From: Pyrinomonadaceae bacterium
Lineage (GTDB): Bacteria; Acidobacteriota; Blastocatellia; Pyrinomonadales; Pyrinomonadaceae
Length of the DNA stretch: 64,000 nucleotides
Direction of reading: 5' to 3'
Assembly: GCA_036277115.1 (NCBI GenBank)
Contig: DASUNM010000023.1
Coordinates: 248,001 to 312,000 of the forward strand
The translations under genes and the position numbers were made by a program. The notes beneath the pieces were generated by a model. The model saw only the letters and a list, made by a program, of their open reading frames with translations. It ran no database searches and had not been told where the DNA came from. Numbering within the stretch: the stretch's first letter is position 1; every line of letters begins with the position of its first letter. This document shows positions 13,438 through 53,316 of this stretch, piece by piece.

Positions 13438-16400
13438 TTAGCTCTGGAGAATTTGATCTGTGTGCGGCTCTCTTGGCTGAGCTTCAGTGCCTTCATTATC
13501 GATCCAGGCTCCCATTAGGATCCGCACGTCATGCGGCTTGCCATCATCGGCCAGCGCTATCTCTTTGCTTGCCTGCTCGACGCCGTCAAGTTCGACGCTC
13601 GCGACACCGCGCGACACCGCGTGCGGATTCTCAACTTTGATCCGATAAACTGAACTGCCACGCCGATAGGTGATGTCGAAATCGCGCCAGAACCGGGGGA
13701 TACACGGATCGACGCGCAGGCGGTCCCCCTGTAACTTAAACCCGAGGATGTATTCCAAAGCCGCGCGATACATCCATCCCGCCGAACCGGTGTACCACGT
13801 CCAGCCGCCCCGCCCGGTGTGCGGCGGTACCGCGTAGACGTCGCCAGGCGCGACGTACGGCTCGACCTTATACTTGTGCAAACCGGCGCGGGTCGATGAG
13901 TGATTGATAGGATTCAGTAACCCAAACAACTCGCCCGCACGATCCCCTTCCCCTAACAACGCAAACGCGATGACTGTCCACAACGCCGCGTGCGTGTACT
14001 GCCCGCCATTCTCACGCACACCGGGAACGTAACCTTTGACATAGCCCGGATCGAGTTTGCTTTTGTCGAAGGGGGGCGTGAACAGGATGATTAGACCGTC
14101 GCCGCGCCGAATCAGGTATTGCTCAACCGCCGCCATCGCTCGCTGCGCCCGATACGATTCGGCGACGCCGGATATGACCGCCCAGGTCTGAGCGATGGAA
14201 TCGATCCGGCATTCGTCGTTCTGCGCTGAGCCGAGCGGCGTCCCGTCATCGAAGTAGGCGCGGCGATACCAGTCACCATCCCAGGACTTTTCCAGACCCT
14301 TGCGAAGTTTTTCAAGATGGATTGCGTAGGTTGTGCGGTGATCCACAGGTTGACTGTTGGCTCCCGCTCCCGTTACTGACACGTCCGCTCCGGGTTCTGA
14401 CAAGAACGGTTCGATGCCCTGCAGTACTGTAGCCAGAAACCATCCCAGCCAGACACTTTCGCCTTTGCCGCCGATGCCGATGCGATTCATGCCATCGTTC
14501 CAGTCTCCTGAGCCCATCAACGGCAACCCATGCGCGCCTAACCCGAGACTGCGGTCGATCGCGCGCGTGCAATGTTCGAGGATGGTTCCGCTTTCAGAAG
14601 AGATCTTCGGTTCGATGTAGGCCTCATGCTGATCAGGCTTCAACAACTCCGCTTCCAAAAACGGCACCGGCTCGCTCAGCACGGATTGATCGCCGGTGAT
14701 GTTCACGTAATGCGCGACGACATACGGCAGCCAAAGCAGATCATCTGAAAAGCGCGTGCGCACGCCGCGAGCGGTCGGTTCGTGCCACCAATGCAGCACG
14801 TCACCTTCTTTAAACTGCCGTGAAGCCGCGCGCAGGATCTGTTCGCGCGCAACTTCGGGCCGCGCGTAAACCAACGTCATCACGTCCTGCAACTGATCGC
14901 GAAAACCGAACGCGCCGCTGGATTGATAAAACGCCGAGCGCCCGCGCACGCGGCACGCCAGCACCTGACACAAGAGCCAGCGGTTGACGAGCGTATCGAG
15001 CGAAGCATCGGGAGTTTTGATTTCCACGGTCGAGAGCGTCTGGTCCCAGAAGTTCAGCACGCGTTCCAGGGCTTCATTGACCGCCTGTACGTTGCGAAAA
15101 CGTGAATTGATCTCTCGCGCTCGCTCGATTGACTCGGCCTGTCCCAGCAGAAACACGATCTCGCGGGCCTCGCCGGGCGCGAGCTCGATCTGCGCCTGAA
15201 TCGCTGCGCATGGATCGAGACCGGCGCCGTCACGACCACTCAACCCCACGCGCCGCAAAGCAGCCGGATGGGCGAGGGAGCCATTGCGCCCGATGAACTC
15301 TTTGCGATCGCAGGTCATGGTGCAGCGGAGTTCGCTGGTGCCGACGAAGACGATGCGTTCGGCAAATTCGTTGTTGAAGGAATTTCTCGCGAACACTGCG
15401 CCCTGTTGCTCTTCGATGTCAGTCACGATGTGCGGCGCGGACGCATGACGATCGACGCCCAGGGTTAAATCAACATAATTCGTTACCGACAATCGCCGTT
15501 TTCGTTCAGTCCGATTGCGCAGACGCAAGAGCAAAATTTTCACCGGCGCATCCAGCGGTGCAAACATGAGCAGCTCTTGCGAGATACCGTGACTCGCGTG
15601 CTCAAAAACCGTGTAGCCCTGTCCGTGGCGAATTGAGTACGGAGCATGCTCGCGGATCGGCAAAGGCGTCGGCGTCCAGGTTGCGCCTGAATCCTCATCG
15701 CGCAGGTAAATGACCTCGCCGGGCGTGTCGCTAACAACGTCGTTCGACCAGGGCGTCAGACGATTCTCGTGACTGTTACTGGCCCAGGTGAATCCGCCGC
15801 CGGTTTCGGTCACCAGGAAACCAACATCGGCATTGTTCGCGACCACATTGCTCCACGGGGCCGGCGTCCATTGGCCTTCGCCGAGGATGGTTACGTATTC
15901 GCGCCCGCCGTGCGCAAAGCCGCCGACGCCGTTAAAGAAGGACAGCTTTGGAATTTCGAGTGGCGTCTCGGAATAAGTTTGCGACGGCGCATATGGTTGG
16001 AACTCCGCCGGCAGTGGTCCTTCGGCAGGCCGTCTCACAAGTTGATCTTCAAGCGATCCTCTTTCGCTGACAATCACCACCCGCGCCACCGCATGCAGCA
16101 GAATGCGCTCTTCCTGCGGAATCTGATCTGAGCGACGAATGAATACGCCGGCCGGCTTATCCAGCAACGTTTGCACCCCCGCGGTCCGCGCCGCAGTCTG
16201 CAACGACTCGTGCAGAGACTGGGCGTAACCCGACGGATGGTCATTGAGAATTACCAGATCGAATTGCAGTCCCTTTGAACTGAGGTACTGGTGCGCGCGC
16301 AAGAGCTGTCGCGCCATGGGCACATCTTCTTCGCGCTCGAGACGCAAAATCACGATCGGCAAGTCGCCACCGATGCCGTGGCCCCACAAGCGCGCCTGCG

Positions 16401-19400
16401 TCAGACGATTCAGCGCCAGCACGTGCGGCCGCGGACGTAAGGAAGGGTCGAGGTAAAGAATGCGGCCGGCCAGTCTCTGAAAAAGGTGGGCCTCGTCAGG
16501 ATCGATATGCAGGTGCGTCATCTCAACCTGCGCCCGCGTCCAGGCCATGCGAGACTCGCGTTCAAAGATTCCGGCGTCAAAATACTTTTCACTGAGCGCG
16601 TGCGCTTGTTCGCTTGATTCCGCGACCCCAGTGGTGAAAACAACCTGAACGCTTTCGTTCGGCTGCAAACGCACTCGACAACGCAAGCTGAAGATTGGAT
16701 CGAGTACCGCGCCGACGGTGTTCGACAAAGGCTGGTCGGCCACGACTGAAACCGGGTCCGACGTATTGTGGCCGCGGCCGAGAAAACGCGAGCGATCCGT
16801 TTCGAATTGAATTCCCCCGATCGTTTCCGCCGTAGTCGCCAGCACATGCACACCCCAAACGGGCTTGTCTTCCGAAGAGCGTTGCCGCCGGCGCGCAAAT
16901 AGAGTGTTGTGACGGCCGTGAAATTCAGTCTCGACGAAAAGATTGCTAAACGCGGGATGCGCTACGTCGCTGGCCTGCGGCGCGAGCACGACCTCGCTGT
17001 AGCTGGTCAACTCGATCTCGCGCGGCCGGTTTCCAAAGTTGGTAACGGAGACCCGTCGCATCTCAGCGTTTTCCTCGGCTGAGACGATGACCTCCATATG
17101 CGTCACGATGCCTGAATCGCGCCGCCAGAAATCGGCTTTGTCTTCAGAGAATGCGACTTCATAGTCCTGGGCTCTCGCCGGGATCGGCTGATGACCGGTT
17201 GACCAAACGACGCCACTGCGAATGTCACGCACGTAAATAAAGCTGCCCCAGTGATCACGCGTTGGATCTTCTCGCCAACGGGTCACCGCCAACGGTCCGG
17301 ATCGCGAGTAGCCGCTGCCGGCGGTCGTGATCATCAGCGTGTACGTTCCATTCGACAGCAACTGCGTGCGCGGCGTCGGCAAATCCGCCGTGTCGTACGC
17401 GCGCGTCACCAGGCCCGTCAGCGTGCGCACTACTCGACCCGACAAAACCTCTTCGGCACGCGGATGCGCCGCTGGGACACCGCGCGGCACGCGCTCCTGC
17501 AAAAGCAGTTCAGTTGACTGCACCAGCGGTTCGTTGTGAAAGCGATTCTGCGTGATGTTCTGGTTCAGTAAGTTGTCCAGTGCAACCAGACTCATGCCCT
17601 GATGGTGCGCCATGAACGCGCGCACCGGCGTGCAGTGCTCACCTTTCTTTACGCGCTCAGGCGTGTAGTCGAGCGCTTCGTAAAACCCGTAACGGGACAG
17701 CGCGCCTTCACGCTCAAGTGCGCGCAGGTTCTCGATTGCCTCAACCGGCTTTACCTGTGACGCGAGAATCGTGGCGTAAGGCGAAACGACCAGGTCTTCA
17801 ATCAAGCCGCGTTTCAAACCTAAACCGGGCACACCGAACGGGCCGTACTGATAGTTAAGTTGCAGGTCGCGGGCCGCGTACGCAGATTCTGAAATGCCCC
17901 ACGGAACGCCACGTTCAGTGCCGTACTCAATCTGCCGCATCACAATGGCGTCGTAAGTTTCGCCCAGCAGCGTGTCGCGATAATCACGCATCACGAGCAG
18001 CGGCATCAGATATTCGAACATGGTGCCGGTCCAGGAAATCAGCGCGCGGCCGCCATTAACCGACGTCAGCTGGCGACCCATGCGAAACCAATGTTCCTGC
18101 GGCACGTCGCCTTTGGCGATCGCGACAAAGCTGGCCAGCCGGGCTTCCGACGCCAGCAGGTCATAGAACGAGTTATCGCGGCGACCTTCGGTGACGTTGA
18201 AGCCGACGGTGAAAACTTTTCGCTCCTGCTCGAGCAGAAACTTGAAATCCATTTCGTCGAAGAGGCGCTGGCAGACGGCCGCGATTTTTGCGAGGCGGGC
18301 AGAGATGTCTTTCGCAGCTTCAGTCCCCTCGTCCGAGCTTGAAGCCAACGTCGGTTGCGCCGCCTCTGCCGTGACGCTTTCCGAAATCAGTATTTGGAAA
18401 TCGCGCTGCCAGTTGCCGGATTGCCTCAGCAAAGCGCTGCTCCACCAATGCAGTTCTTCGACTTCGCCGCTCTGGTGCACGTGCGAGAGCGCAGCGACTG
18501 TGTCGTCAATCGTCGCCGCCCGTTCGTTGACGCGCTCAAGCAAGTCGCGCCACTCGTCCAGACTCTGCGGCTCGGGTAGGGCCAACAGTTCTGCCAGCGC
18601 GTCCAGCTCCTGCATCAACTGCTTGATGCTGATCGCGTCGGTGCGCTGGCGGGCGGTGGTGAGTTGCGACATCTCGTGGCGCAAAGCGGCCAGCGTGTCG
18701 CACAAGCCATTCAAAACGCGCGCTCCAAACAACTGGTCATCCGGGATTTCCAAACATGTCTGTTTGAGCGCGAGCAGGCAGGCCGCCAGGTTTCCGCTGT
18801 CAACTGATGACACATAGTGCGGCCACATGGCTTCCAACGTTCTCGTGTCGTACCAGTTGAGCAAATGACCGCGGAACTTTTGCAGCTTTTGGTGACTGGC
18901 GATCGTTTTCTCCAAACGCTCGACCAGCTCAACCACGCCGACATAGCCAAAGTCGTAAGCCGCGACAGTTGAGAGCCATAACAGACCAATGTTCGTCGGT
19001 GAAGTGCGATGCGCCACGAGAGGTTTGGGATCTTCCTGAAAGTTGTCAGGCGGCAACCAGTGATCTTCATCACCGACAAAAGTTTCGAAGAAGCGCCAGG
19101 TGCGACGCGCGACCGTGCGGATGGCGCGCACGTCTTTGGCGTTCAGCGAGAGCGCAACTTCAGCGCGGCGACGGCTAATTACAAAAGCAATGACGGGCGA
19201 GGCCGCCCACGCCACCAGGAAAATCGCCGCGGCCGGCAGTGAGGCGACACTCGACATCACGATTAGCGCGACCGCGACCAACACGATCACCACCGCCGGC
19301 CACATGAAACGAAGGAAAGCGGGGAGATCATGCTTACTCGACGCTTCGGAACTCGCGGCCGTAACCCATTCGAGTAGATGCCGCCGCGAAACAAACTTTC

Positions 19401-22248
19401 GATAGATCGTCCGAGCGATCGCATCCACCATCAGCCCGGCTTGGTGCGCGAGAAACACAATCTCAACGGCGATCTGCGCGGTGTTTGTGCGCGCGTCTCC
19501 CCAGACGCTCCAGAAGTGACTTGTCCACGGCACGCCACGCGGATGAATCAGCAAACCACTGGTGACGTGCGCGTAAACTGGAAACGCCAGCGTCAGCAGC
19601 ACAAACAGTTCCCACCACCAGGCACTGACGGGAAGCACCGTCCAGCCGGCGATCAACAACAGCACAATCGAAGGCGCTAAAAGACTTCGTCGCAAATTGT
19701 CGAGAATCTGCCAGCGCGAGATCGCCGGAATGCGGTTGGGTCGTTTTTGGCCTTGCGCATCACGCACCGTGCCGAATAACCACTCCGTGATTTGCCAATC
19801 ACCACGCGTCCAACGATGCTGCCGGCGTGCGAACGAGTCGTAGTAAGCAGGGTAGTCATCGAGAAACTCAATGTCCGTAACCAGCGCGGTGCGCGCAAAA
19901 ATCGATTCGAACAAGTCGTGACTCAACAGCGTCTGCTCAGGCACGCGTTCATGCATCGCCTGCTCAAATGCTTTGACATCGTAGAGACCTTTGCCGGTGT
20001 AAATGCCCGCGCCGAAAAGATCCTGATAAACGTCCGAAGCTGCCGTCGTGTAGGGATCGACGCCGGTGTTGCCCGAGAAGATGCGCGCAAAGGTCGAGCG
20101 CGAAGCGCTTTCGAGAGAAATACTGACGCGGGGTTGAAAGATCGTGTAACCCTCGGTCATACGATCTTCCGCCGCGTCGAACCGGGGCAGATTCAGTGGA
20201 TGAATAGCTGTGCCGATCAGGCGGTGCGCGGTCTCGCGCGGCAGTTGGGTGTCTGCATCGAGGGTGAGGACGTAACGAATCTCGGACAGCAGTTCTTCGC
20301 CGGCGGTAGTAACGATAAAGCTGGTGTCAGTGGCGCCCAGCAGTAGCTGGTTGAATTCACGCAGCTTGCCGCGCTTACGTTCCCAACCAATCCACGAGTT
20401 TTCCGTCTCGCACCATTGGCGGCGACGATGAAAATAGTGGAAGCGTCCGGGGTGCGTGCCGTTGTAACGCTTGTTGAGTGCCGCGATGCGTTCCAGGGCC
20501 GCTTCCACGATTTCCTTGTCAGCGGGCGTTGTCTCACTCGTCGCATCGGCGAAGTCACCGAGAATCGCAAAGTGAATGTGCTCGTCCTGGTTTCCGAGGT
20601 AGGTAATCTCCAGCTTTTCGGCTATTTCCTCAACCGAAGCCACAGCGGAAAGAATCACCGGCACGACGACGATCGTGCGCGCTTCCGCCGGCACGCCTTT
20701 GGACAAATCGAGTTTCGGCAGCAGCCGCGGCCGGTAGGTGTGTGTAACGCCCCAATTGATAATGCTGATCGCGAGGTCGCTGGCTGGCAACAGCGCCAGG
20801 AGAACTGCGAGCACGACACTTACGGGGTGCGGTTGGGCGCGCGCCACGGCCACTGCGATCACCGCGAGGATCAGGGACGTCAGAAACGTCAACGACCCGA
20901 GAAAAAACAACGTCGCGTGACGTAGTGTCCAACGCTCGAGCCTCTCGCCAATCCGTGGACGATAGCTCGTCTCCGATTCAAGCTGCCCAAGCCCTCGGCC
21001 AATCAGGAAGTAGCCGATGTGCGCTTGCGAGCTCTCTTTGGCATCCGCGGGCGCCGCTTCCGCGGAAGGCGGAAACCCGACCGTGAGGGAGGGTGCGGCC
21101 CGCGCGTTAGCACCCTCCCTTACGGTCGGGTTTCTGCTTTCTGTGGGCGCCGCTTCCGATAATCGTAAAGCCGCACGCGCGACATCCAGTTCCCTGACCT
21201 TCGCCCGTTTTCCGATCCGCTCAACGACCTTGCGGTAACGATCGCGCGTGGCGAAATCCATGCGCGAGTAGATGCGGGCCGGATCTTTCGCTAGCTCACG
21301 ATCGATCAAGCTGACGGTTTCAAAAAAATCCCGCCAGTCCAGCGTCGAGAGCAGGCGCATGCTCGTGATGATGTTGCCCACGGTGACCTGGGCGCCGGCC
21401 TGCCTCCGATGTTCTTCATGAACAATGTCGTGAATCGAGAGGTTAAGTTTGTGCAGTTGCATCTCGAGCCACTCAACCGCGGGCAGGACTGACGGGTCCT
21501 GCTCGCGGAGGCGCTGCATCAACTGCACGACAAACGCACGGCCGAGTGTTTTTCGCTTACCAAGCCTGCCCGAAATCAACGGCACAATTTCCTGCGGATT
21601 GAGCTGCGCGGTTTCGAGAAGGGTGTCGGCGAGCTTGTCAGCTTCTTCGCGCTCAGCGCGCGAGGACACGATCCGGGTCGCGAGCCGGCGTAGATTTTCT
21701 ACCAGTGCGAGACGCAGAGTGATCGGCACCGCCCACAATTCGCCAATCGATAGCGGCGCGACCTTTTGGTAAGCGTTAATGAAGCGGCGCAGCGTTTCGG
21801 AATCGAGATAACTGTCCGTATGTGCGACCAGCGCGACCGAGAGGGCATAGATGCGTGGATAACCTTTGAACGCTCCGTCGGCGAGTTTGGGAAGTTCGTC
21901 ATAGTAGCTCTTGGGCAGGTCTTCGCGAATCTCGCGAATCTGCTCTTCGACAATGTGAAAATTATCTACCAGCCATTCGGCTGCGGGCGAGATGACGTGC
22001 TCACTGCGAATTGATTCAGCGAGCGCGTTGTAAGTCTCAACCAGCTTGCGACCATTCTCTTCCAGACGAGGCAACAGCAAACTGCCGCGCTGAGGCGTGT
22101 CGGCGATCTTGTGTTGCGCAGCTAGTTCTCCGGCGTATTGCTCAAGCCGTTCGACGCTGAAAAGCTCTTCACGAATCGGCGGCTCGCCGCTGTCATCAGA
22201 CGCACGACGGAAAATGCGGATCAATGCTGAGAATGGCCACGGCATCAT
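13438..22248 (-). CDS. Cyclic beta-1,2-glucan synthase-like protein (GT84/GH94, NdvB/ChvB type)
   Basis: At 2936 residues this is the largest gene in the window and matches the length of NdvB/Cgs. These inner-membrane enzymes make, cyclise and trim periplasmic beta-1,2-glucans. In order: an N-terminal helical region; a membrane segment near 445-465; a glycosyltransferase domain with LTLDADTQLPRE near 660; more membrane segments near 855-890 and 975-1025; a glycoamylase-like domain near 1335-1555 (GFNVTEGRRDNSFYD); two GH94 beta-sandwich modules; and a GH94 phosphorylase domain whose GSGDWNDGMN near 2585 holds the general-acid Asp. Residues 364-400 and 2615-2634 are encoded by intergenic-type repeats inserted in frame. 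Product linkage is inferred from architecture only. Confidence 0.9.
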   Translation of the reverse strand: MMPWPFSALIRIFRRASDDSGEPPIREELFSVERLEQYAGELAAQHKIADTPQRGSLLLPRLEENGRKLVETYNALAESIRSEHVISPAAEWLVDNFHIVEEQIREIREDLPKSYYDELPKLADGAFKGYPRIYALSVALVAHTDSYLDSETLRRFINAYQKVAPLSIGELWAVPITLRLALVENLRRLATRIVSSRAEREEADKLADTLLETAQLNPQEIVPLISGRLGKRKTLGRAFVVQLMQRLREQDPSVLPAVEWLEMQLHKLNLSIHDIVHEEHRRQAGAQVTVGNIITSMRLLSTLDWRDFFETVSLIDRELAKDPARIYSRMDFATRDRYRKVVERIGKRAKVRELDVARAALRLSEAAPTESRNPTVREGANARAAPSLTVGFPPSAEAAPADAKESSQAHIGYFLIGRGLGQLESETSYRPRIGERLERWTLRHATLFFLGSLTFLTSLILAVIAVAVARAQPHPVSVVLAVLLALLPASDLAISIINWGVTHTYRPRLLPKLDLSKGVPAEARTIVVVPVILSAVASVEEIAEKLEITYLGNQDEHIHFAILGDFADATSETTPADKEIVEAALERIAALNKRYNGTHPGRFHYFHRRRQWCETENSWIGWERKRGKLREFNQLLLGATDTSFIVTTAGEELLSEIRYVLTLDADTQLPRETAHRLIGTAIHPLNLPRFDAAEDRMTEGYTIFQPRVSISLESASRSTFARIFSGNTGVDPYTTAASDVYQDLFGAGIYTGKGLYDVKAFEQAMHERVPEQTLLSHDLFESIFARTALVTDIEFLDDYPAYYDSFARRQHRWTRGDWQITEWLFGTVRDAQGQKRPNRIPAISRWQILDNLRRSLLAPSIVLLLIAGWTVLPVSAWWWELFVLLTLAFPVYAHVTSGLLIHPRGVPWTSHFWSVWGDARTNTAQIAVEIVFLAHQAGLMVDAIARTIYRKFVSRRHLLEWVTAASSEASSKHDLPAFLRFMWPAVVIVLVAVALIVMSSVASLPAAAIFLVAWAASPVIAFVISRRRAEVALSLNAKDVRAIRTVARRTWRFFETFVGDEDHWLPPDNFQEDPKPLVAHRTSPTNIGLLWLSTVAAYDFGYVGVVELVERLEKTIASHQKLQKFRGHLLNWYDTRTLEAMWPHYVSSVDSGNLAACLLALKQTCLEIPDDQLFGARVLNGLCDTLAALRHEMSQLTTARQRTDAISIKQLMQELDALAELLALPEPQSLDEWRDLLERVNERAATIDDTVAALSHVHQSGEVEELHWWSSALLRQSGNWQRDFQILISESVTAEAAQPTLASSSDEGTEAAKDISARLAKIAAVCQRLFDEMDFKFLLEQERKVFTVGFNVTEGRRDNSFYDLLASEARLASFVAIAKGDVPQEHWFRMGRQLTSVNGGRALISWTGTMFEYLMPLLVMRDYRDTLLGETYDAIVMRQIEYGTERGVPWGISESAYAARDLQLNYQYGPFGVPGLGLKRGLIEDLVVSPYATILASQVKPVEAIENLRALEREGALSRYGFYEALDYTPERVKKGEHCTPVRAFMAHHQGMSLVALDNLLNQNITQNRFHNEPLVQSTELLLQERVPRGVPAAHPRAEEVLSGRVVRTLTGLVTRAYDTADLPTPRTQLLSNGTYTLMITTAGSGYSRSGPLAVTRWREDPTRDHWGSFIYVRDIRSGVVWSTGHQPIPARAQDYEVAFSEDKADFWRRDSGIVTHMEVIVSAEENAEMRRVSVTNFGNRPREIELTSYSEVVLAPQASDVAHPAFSNLFVETEFHGRHNTLFARRRQRSSEDKPVWGVHVLATTAETIGGIQFETDRSRFLGRGHNTSDPVSVVADQPLSNTVGAVLDPIFSLRCRVRLQPNESVQVVFTTGVAESSEQAHALSEKYFDAGIFERESRMAWTRAQVEMTHLHIDPDEAHLFQRLAGRILYLDPSLRPRPHVLALNRLTQARLWGHGIGGDLPIVILRLEREEDVPMARQLLRAHQYLSSKGLQFDLVILNDHPSGYAQSLHESLQTAARTAGVQTLLDKPAGVFIRRSDQIPQEERILLHAVARVVIVSERGSLEDQLVRRPAEGPLPAEFQPYAPSQTYSETPLEIPKLSFFNGVGGFAHGGREYVTILGEGQWTPAPWSNVVANNADVGFLVTETGGGFTWASNSHENRLTPWSNDVVSDTPGEVIYLRDEDSGATWTPTPLPIREHAPYSIRHGQGYTVFEHASHGISQELLMFAPLDAPVKILLLRLRNRTERKRRLSVTNYVDLTLGVDRHASAPHIVTDIEEQQGAVFARNSFNNEFAERIVFVGTSELRCTMTCDRKEFIGRNGSLAHPAALRRVGLSGRDGAGLDPCAAIQAQIELAPGEAREIVFLLGQAESIERAREINSRFRNVQAVNEALERVLNFWDQTLSTVEIKTPDASLDTLVNRWLLCQVLACRVRGRSAFYQSSGAFGFRDQLQDVMTLVYARPEVAREQILRAASRQFKEGDVLHWWHEPTARGVRTRFSDDLLWLPYVVAHYVNITGDQSVLSEPVPFLEAELLKPDQHEAYIEPKISSESGTILEHCTRAIDRSLGLGAHGLPLMGSGDWNDGMNRIGIGGKGESVWLGWFLATVLQGIEPFLSEPGADVSVTGAGANSQPVDHRTTYAIHLEKLRKGLEKSWDGDWYRRAYFDDGTPLGSAQNDECRIDSIAQTWAVISGVAESYRAQRAMAAVEQYLIRRGDGLIILFTPPFDKSKLDPGYVKGYVPGVRENGGQYTHAALWTVIAFALLGEGDRAGELFGLLNPINHSSTRAGLHKYKVEPYVAPGDVYAVPPHTGRGGWTWYTGSAGWMYRAALEYILGFKLQGDRLRVDPCIPRFWRDFDITYRRGSSVYRIKVENPHAVSRGVASVELDGVEQASKEIALADDGKPHDVRILMGAWIDNEGTEAQPREPHTDQILQS
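14352..14395 (-). repeat. Repeat arm words inside the glucan synthase gene
   Basis: On the coding strand, TCAGAACCCGGAGCGGAC, GTG, then TCAGTAACGGGAGCGG lie side by side. They match the two arms of the intergenic element at 6906-7009 with one difference each. They encode about 15 residues (SEPGADVSVTGAGA) in a loop of the GH94 domain, without breaking the frame. Confidence 0.65.
21049..21158. repeat. In-frame palindromic repeat insertion with 14-bp flanking direct repeats
   Basis: A 25-bp inverted repeat (21072-21096 against 21110-21134, one mismatch) with a 13-base spacer lies inside the glucan synthase coding sequence. A perfect 14-bp direct repeat, GGGCGCCGCTTCCG, brackets it at 21049-21062 and 21145-21158. 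The offset is 96 bases, so the insertion adds exactly 32 codons and keeps the frame. A relative of the palindrome lies in the intergenic region at 53221-53316. Confidence 0.85.
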
Positions 22249-24095: not shown

Positions 24096-24353
24096 TCTAT
24101 TCGCTCCTGTGACAGACGAATTGAAATGCTGAAACGAAATGAAGAGTTAACGAAAGCGCGGACATAGTACCAGAGGAATGCACGGTTTTTCCAAGCAGCG
24201 GTTTCGTTCACTTAAGTGAGCAAGCCGTTAGTCTGGATGAGGTTGAGCCGAAACTTCGGCGAGCGGTCGGTCCGGCGGTGACACTTGATCAAGATGGCAG
24301 CCGGGGTGCAATAGCCCGACTGTTAGTGAGGGCGTGGTGAAGCGTTGTGAGAC

Positions 24354-53220: not shown

Positions 53221-53316
53221 GGGCGGTAGCCCGACCGTGAGGGAGGGCTGTTGAAATCTCAGATCTCAAATTTGAGATCTCATAAATTGCCCTCCCTCAT
53301 GGTCGGGCTACTGCCC
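53221..53316. repeat. Palindromic repeat with nested perfect palindrome
   Basis: Arms of 28 bases (53221-53248 and 53289-53316) match with two G/A differences. They contain GCCCGACC..GAGGGAGGGC, the same words as the in-frame insertion at 21072-21134. The loop holds a second, perfect 20-bp palindrome, AGATCTCAAATTTGAGATCT (53261-53280). It occupies the gene-free stretch 53019-53339. No T-run follows it, so it is not a standard terminator. Confidence 0.85.

Follow-up and report, generated by a model that had tools for sequence, protein, structure and literature searches.

The 64,000-nucleotide window analysed here (Pyrinomonadaceae bacterium, assembly GCA_036277115.1, contig DASUNM010000023.1, positions 248,001 to 312,000) carries a short palindromic element inside the reading frame of a cyclic beta-(1,2)-glucan synthase gene. 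This palindrome is a doublet of repetitive extragenic palindromes (REPs), that is, non-autonomous mobile DNA of the bacterial interspersed mosaic element (BIME) or REPIN type. With a probability of about 0.88, the doublet belongs to a REP family linked to an HUH/Y1 transposase and entered the glucan synthase gene of this lineage in a single event, at a linker that tolerates indels. It is a clear instance of a coding sequence invaded by a REP doublet: the empty site is deduced from six orthologues, and a candidate transposase with identical flanking REPs is found in the same genome.

One 96-bp insertion in the glucan synthase gene

The host protein contains GH94 supersandwich, GH94 catalytic and Glycoamylase domains in a domain search, and matches Agrobacterium NdvB/Cgs (PDB 8rf0) along its length with 2143 bits. 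The open reading frame (ORF) at 13438-22248(-) reads uninterrupted through the insert (...RLSEAAPTESRNPTVREGANARAAPSLTVGFPPSAEAAPADAK...). In the alignment with PDB 8rf0, residues 365 and 399 of the host protein equal Cgs residues 358 and 361, so that the extra segment occupies a place where Cgs has almost nothing. The insert follows residue 365 or so and separates the N-terminal cytoplasmic domain from the first membrane segment. The features in window coordinates are as follows:

13438-22248, minus strand: host gene, cyclic beta-(1,2)-glucan synthase (NdvB/Cgs type), 2936 aa, identified by domain matches and the PDB 8rf0 alignment
21049-21158, no strand: inserted region together with the two direct-repeat copies; a net 96 bp (32 aa) more than in any of the same-genus orthologues
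21049-21062, plus strand: direct repeat copy 1, GGGCGCCGCTTCCG, coding for the distal AEAAP
21063-21067, no strand: CGGAA, 5 extra bases separating the left REP from direct repeat 1
21068-21096, plus strand: left REP half GGCGGAAACCCGACCGTGAGGGAGGGTGC, all 29 nt matching the REP on the left side of the Y1 transposase gene (G000:C21:579319-579347)
21097-21109, no strand: 13-nt spacer, the loop of the doublet hairpin; not common to the transposase unit
21110-21137, minus strand: right REP half GCAGAAACCCGACCGTAAGGGAGGGTGC (minus-strand reading), all 28 nt matching the REP on the right side of the Y1 transposase gene
21138-21144, no strand: TTTCTGT, 7 extra bases separating direct repeat 2 from the right REP
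21145-21158, plus strand: direct repeat copy 2, GGGCGCCGCTTCCG, coding for the proximal SEAAP

Through tblastn and MAFFT, we found that all six same-genus orthologues (G001-G006) lack exactly 32 residues at the insert and align gap-free on both sides, reading ALRLAEEAR-RAGEDAAHAHVGYF where the host protein reads ALRLSEAAP[32]ADAKESSQAHIGYF. The palindrome and the 32 residues are missing together from these orthologues and from the other relatives. The first-pass annotation had claimed an in-frame gain of 32 residues with (S)EAAP at both ends, and the alignments bear this out. Small length differences of other kinds occur at this site in more distant relatives, such as L044 and L061, and mark it as a tolerant linker. 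The 32 residues counted in proteins and the 96-bp spacing of the direct repeats are independent measurements that agree, indicating that the 14-bp repeat belongs to the insertion event. The change is thus a single 96-bp insertion, made up of 82 bp plus one 14-bp repeat, and the repeat arose in, or together with, the insertion. In one congener (G005), the C-terminal part of NdvB contains a single REP that was inserted independently and in frame: CEKSE[TRPSGRV]QRYRAYLEK (L260, C435:921-945).

Structure of the inserted DNA

On the plus strand, the order is GGGCGCCGCTTCCG - CGGAA - (GGCGGAAACCCGACCGTGAGGGAGGGTGC - 13 nt - GCACCCTCCCTTACGGTCGGGTTTCTGC) - TTTCTGT - GGGCGCCGCTTCCG. The inverted-repeat arms (21048-21096 and 21110-21158) are 80% complementary over 49 nt, and the inner 24-bp arms (AAACCCGACCGTRAGGGAGGGTGC) differ from each other at one G/A position. 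Folded as single-stranded DNA (ssDNA), the 82 nt between the direct repeats (21063-21144) form a single 33-bp hairpin of -36.6 kcal/mol (z = -9.0), and 0 of 200 shuffled sequences folded as well. The inverted repeat reported earlier in the coding sequence is therefore present, with a hairpin longer than the 25 bp proposed. Each REP half is itself an imperfect hairpin with an ACCC/GGGT stem, GA mismatches, a CC/GG stem and a GTRA loop (-3.8 kcal/mol); in the left half the mismatches are tandem G.A pairs and the loop is GTGA. The fold of a single half is modest (z only about -1.5).

The 14-bp direct repeat, spaced by 96, extends to 19 bp with two C/T differences, and the two copies bracketing the insert are the only exact ones in the 4.85-Mb genome. 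The bracketing of the palindrome at a 96-base offset had been described correctly; the repeats do not abut it, since 5 bp on the left and 7 bp on the right intervene.

The REP family and its candidate transposase

Allowing up to two mismatches, the core CCGACCGTNAGGGAGGG gave 57+51 matches in the genome (about 108), versus 0+1 for the reversed control. The copies occur singly or as inverted pairs, and in this genome doublets are about as common as singles. The majority read cggGGCAGTAGCCCGACCGTNAGGGAGGGC and a minority, including the insert, GGCRGAAACCCGACCGTNAGGGAGGGTGC; between the two types the outer stem pair switches jointly from G-C to A-T. The GTAG 5' of the hairpin is missing in the insert, whose arms carry GAAA (GCGGAAACCC / GCAGAAACCC), whereas most other copies in the genome do carry GCAGTAGCCC. 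Inverted pairs are abundant in other genomes of the genus (31 in G003 and 22 in G001) and rare in the family outside it; named records with such pairs come from Blastocatellia/Pyrinomonadaceae, other Acidobacteria, Gemmataceae, Phycisphaerales and others. The doublets collected from this genome and its relatives numbered 104, and 58 singles were compared with them. Inverted pairs numbered 104 in one orientation and 1 in the other, at loci largely chosen by an inverted-pair pattern. The variable loop base agreed between the arms in 73 of the 104 doublets, where 28 were expected, as would be seen if the two REPs of a pair are copied, or retained, as one unit.

On another contig of the same genome, a Y1 transposase gene (G000:C21:579353-579871) encodes a protein of 173 aa that scores 30 bits against Pfam PF01797 Y1_Tnp (cut-off 23) and has an HUH motif, NHFHVVV, and a YVLYGQ motif. 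The gene is bracketed by inverted REPs equal to the left arm (29 nt) and the right arm (28 nt) of the insert, and the identity includes the two A/G positions that distinguish the arms. Within three mismatches, no other doublet of the genome has both such arms. A Y1 gene between identical REPs is the REPtron arrangement. Among the Y1 homologues, two (L215, L225) have inverted copies of the same REP core on both sides, one (L219) has the same GAAACCC variant adjoining the gene, and seven (L214, L220, L221, L223, L224, L226, L229) are bracketed by other palindromes.

Judged by motifs and not by the published class-3 profile, the enzyme is probably an HUH/Y1, REP-associated tyrosine transposase (RAYT)-like protein of class 3 TnpA-Y1. 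YVLYGQ is present as Y----Q, and CGGA/CAGA stands one base outside the stem; this signature and the CnGA-like foot would fit the description of class 3 (PMC6006769). For Y1 enzymes of the REP type, single-stranded imperfect hairpins are the known substrates, and the mismatches in them are required (PMC8266576); by analogy, the same may hold for this enzyme.

The insertion step and alternative explanations

The first-pass annotation had said that the direct repeat looked like a target duplication, which would make it a signature of how the family moves. We compared the longest word shared by the left and right 45-bp flanks with that shared by mismatched flanks. The results showed means of 5.15 versus 4.96 for the doublets (n=104) and 5.16 versus 5.16 for the singles (n=58). 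A 14-bp repeat was reached by the insert alone, and the other 103 doublets stayed at chance level. For the general claim, the expectation that copies elsewhere would carry direct repeats thus failed. Target duplication as a rule of the family was rejected for doublets and singles alike.

The extra bases at the junctions mirror or repeat their neighbours, the 5 bases as a fold-back (TTCCG|CGGAA) and the 7 bases as a tandem (TTTCTGC|TTTCTGT), which is compatible with template switching without proving it. A donor copy carrying GGGCGCCGCTTCCG was not found elsewhere in the 4.85-Mb genome by exact match. We infer that the 14-bp repeat is a local repair or strand-transfer accident and not a target duplication made by a transposase.

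In the mechanism that we propose, the Y1 transposase would recognise the imperfect single-stranded hairpins and move or copy the pair as ssDNA. The inserted copy may descend from the transposase unit or from a lost sister doublet, and the direct repeat could have been left by repair or strand transfer that took an untypical course at this single site. Insertions that shifted the frame or brought stops would have been lost, so that the frame was kept. Several points weigh against this picture. A 14-bp direct repeat is unexpected from ssDNA transposition by Y1 enzymes of the IS200/IS605 type and is missing elsewhere in the family, which leaves the insertion step incompletely explained. The interior of the transposase unit and the 13-nt spacer share nothing, so that direct descent from this unit is presumed. 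Among the genomes compared, none was a closely related strain with an empty site, the nearest having about 79% amino acid identity over the C-terminal half. The movement of the element is deduced from comparison of sequences.

One alternative shares the identity of the element and differs in the insertion step alone: the doublet arrived by replication error or break repair, through template switching from another REP copy or fill-in of a staggered break, and the 14-bp repeat and the short untemplated or repeated bases at both junctions are repair scars. No other copy has such a direct repeat, and the bases at the junctions resemble or mirror those next to them; both points speak for this route, which we regard as fairly unlikely. 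It must, however, capture a complete inverted REP pair with both arms, and such pairs behave as the normal mobile unit; the junction patterns are also short and could be chance.

Much less probable is a miniature inverted-repeat transposable element (MITE) of a DDE transposase, with the 14-bp target-site duplication as its signature. Terminal inverted repeats and an exact repeat whose spacing equals the insertion length would suit such an element, but it is largely refuted by the chance-level flanks of the other 103 doublets, its arms match REPs flanking an HUH/Y1 gene, and the direct repeats do not abut the REPs. We consider it similarly improbable that the 32 residues are a selected functional part, such as a new linker or a regulatory segment, retained because the protein benefits from it. 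The intact frame and the position between the N-terminal and membrane domains would fit this, but the segment is missing from all orthologues, the site tolerates other length changes, and the peptide, being simply what the repeat encodes, is found in unrelated proteins too. A conserved functional insert in NdvB was rejected on the basis of the orthologues, which do not have the segment. It also seems very doubtful that, in some of their insertions, GAAA-type doublets of the class-3-like transposase produce target duplications as long as 14-19 bp; if so, the chemistry of the enzyme would differ from known ssDNA transposition by Y1 enzymes.

Copies inside other genes and the reading frame

About eight further copies of the family lie within reading frames of known proteins in this genome, the hosts being an amidohydrolase, an AddB-like nuclease (with a doublet), penicillin acylase, EgtB, an S9 peptidase, 3-hydroxyacyl-CoA dehydrogenase and a propeller protein. 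Many of the in-frame copies encode the peptide (GSS)PTVREG, so that small mobile hairpins repeatedly give unrelated proteins the same peptide. Those intragenic copies that were compared with relatives lie at variable sites.

Among 70 doublets in named records, 1.9 of the six frames were open through the doublet on average (about 31%). Only 8 of the 70 (about 11%, some of them weak) were in candidate genes, compared to about 85% coding DNA in the window. Among the copies, there is free variation in insert length and in spacer. Taken together, these observations favour selection afterwards as the way in which the frame is kept. Of the two possibilities raised earlier, selection is better supported than a tuned length, and the frame-keeping copies are best explained as survivors of many losses.

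The EgtB loop after 'GGLFELGY' carries a PTVRE-type REP in two species (this genome and L185), and the same loop has other insert-like stretches in other species (L084, L183-L186, L191 set); it is a landing place, or hotspot, for in-frame repeat insertion. The S9-family peptidase (L101, L187) has PAVREG plus a second, TTVREG-like stretch, which is also found in a congener as SPTVKEG and may be an old inherited REP remnant. In an acidobacterial metagenome-assembled genome (L292, 2141-2216), a doublet lies in frame in an ORF resembling DnaE2, an error-prone DNA polymerase.

Comparison with known REP systems

In-frame intragenic REPs are already published, and the 14-bp repeat alone is unusual here. 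GTAG REPs, as singles or dimers in frame inside genes, have been catalogued, for example in Opitutus terrae (BMC Genomics 2013, PMC3733652). According to this catalogue, their hosts include DnaE2, RecBCD and UvrA genes of several species, many being DNA-repair genes; the dimers encode 20-30 residues, linkers were proposed as tolerant sites, and RAYT genes are flanked by REPs. The present family likewise occurs as in-frame singles and dimers in unrelated genes, including DNA-repair hosts (AddB-like in this genome and the DnaE2-like ORF in L292). The catalogue lists Proteobacteria, Cyanobacteria, Chloroflexi and the PVC (Planctomycetes, Verrucomicrobia and Chlamydiae) group, whereas the host here is a Blastocatellia-type acidobacterium and the arms of the insert carry GAAA, not GTAG. 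The result extends in-frame intragenic REPs and their pairing with a REP transposase to Blastocatellia-type Acidobacteriota.

For class 3 TnpA-Y1 and the REPtron, Acidobacteria are among the main hosts, and REPs have been reported to insert into tnpA-REP genes without loss of frame (BMC Genomics 2018, PMC6006769). The system described here resembles them in the HUH motif, in the REP-like hairpins on either side of the gene and in the high copy number of the hairpins, and probably also in the Y----Q motif and a CnGA-like foot, but many hairpins of this genome have GTAG rather than CnGA. With REPINs (PLoS Genet 2011, PMC3116915) it has in common an inverted REP pair as the replicating unit, a long hairpin and complementary arms; unlike them, the insert is intragenic, in frame and accompanied by a direct repeat. 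Rickettsia palindromic elements (RPEs), described as in-frame palindromes in protein genes with a conserved peptide (Ogata et al. 2000, 2002, as cited in PMC10969869), are the classic analogue, the likeness being one of behaviour. The intragenic RPE-4 and RPE-6 of R. conorii correspond to CGTC REPs, for which no dedicated transposase was reported (PMC3733652), whereas a cognate Y1 transposase is present here.

Other members of the family in the window

A second REP doublet of the family lies at 53230-53307 of the window, with an AT-rich palindrome, AGATCTCAAATTTGAGATCT, as its spacer. Spacers of the AGATCTCA type recur in five other doublets (L108, L073, L078, L081, L100) and beside a single REP (L015), and look as if a second repeat sits within the REP pairs. 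At 24315-24332, there is a decayed half-site of the family with two mismatches.

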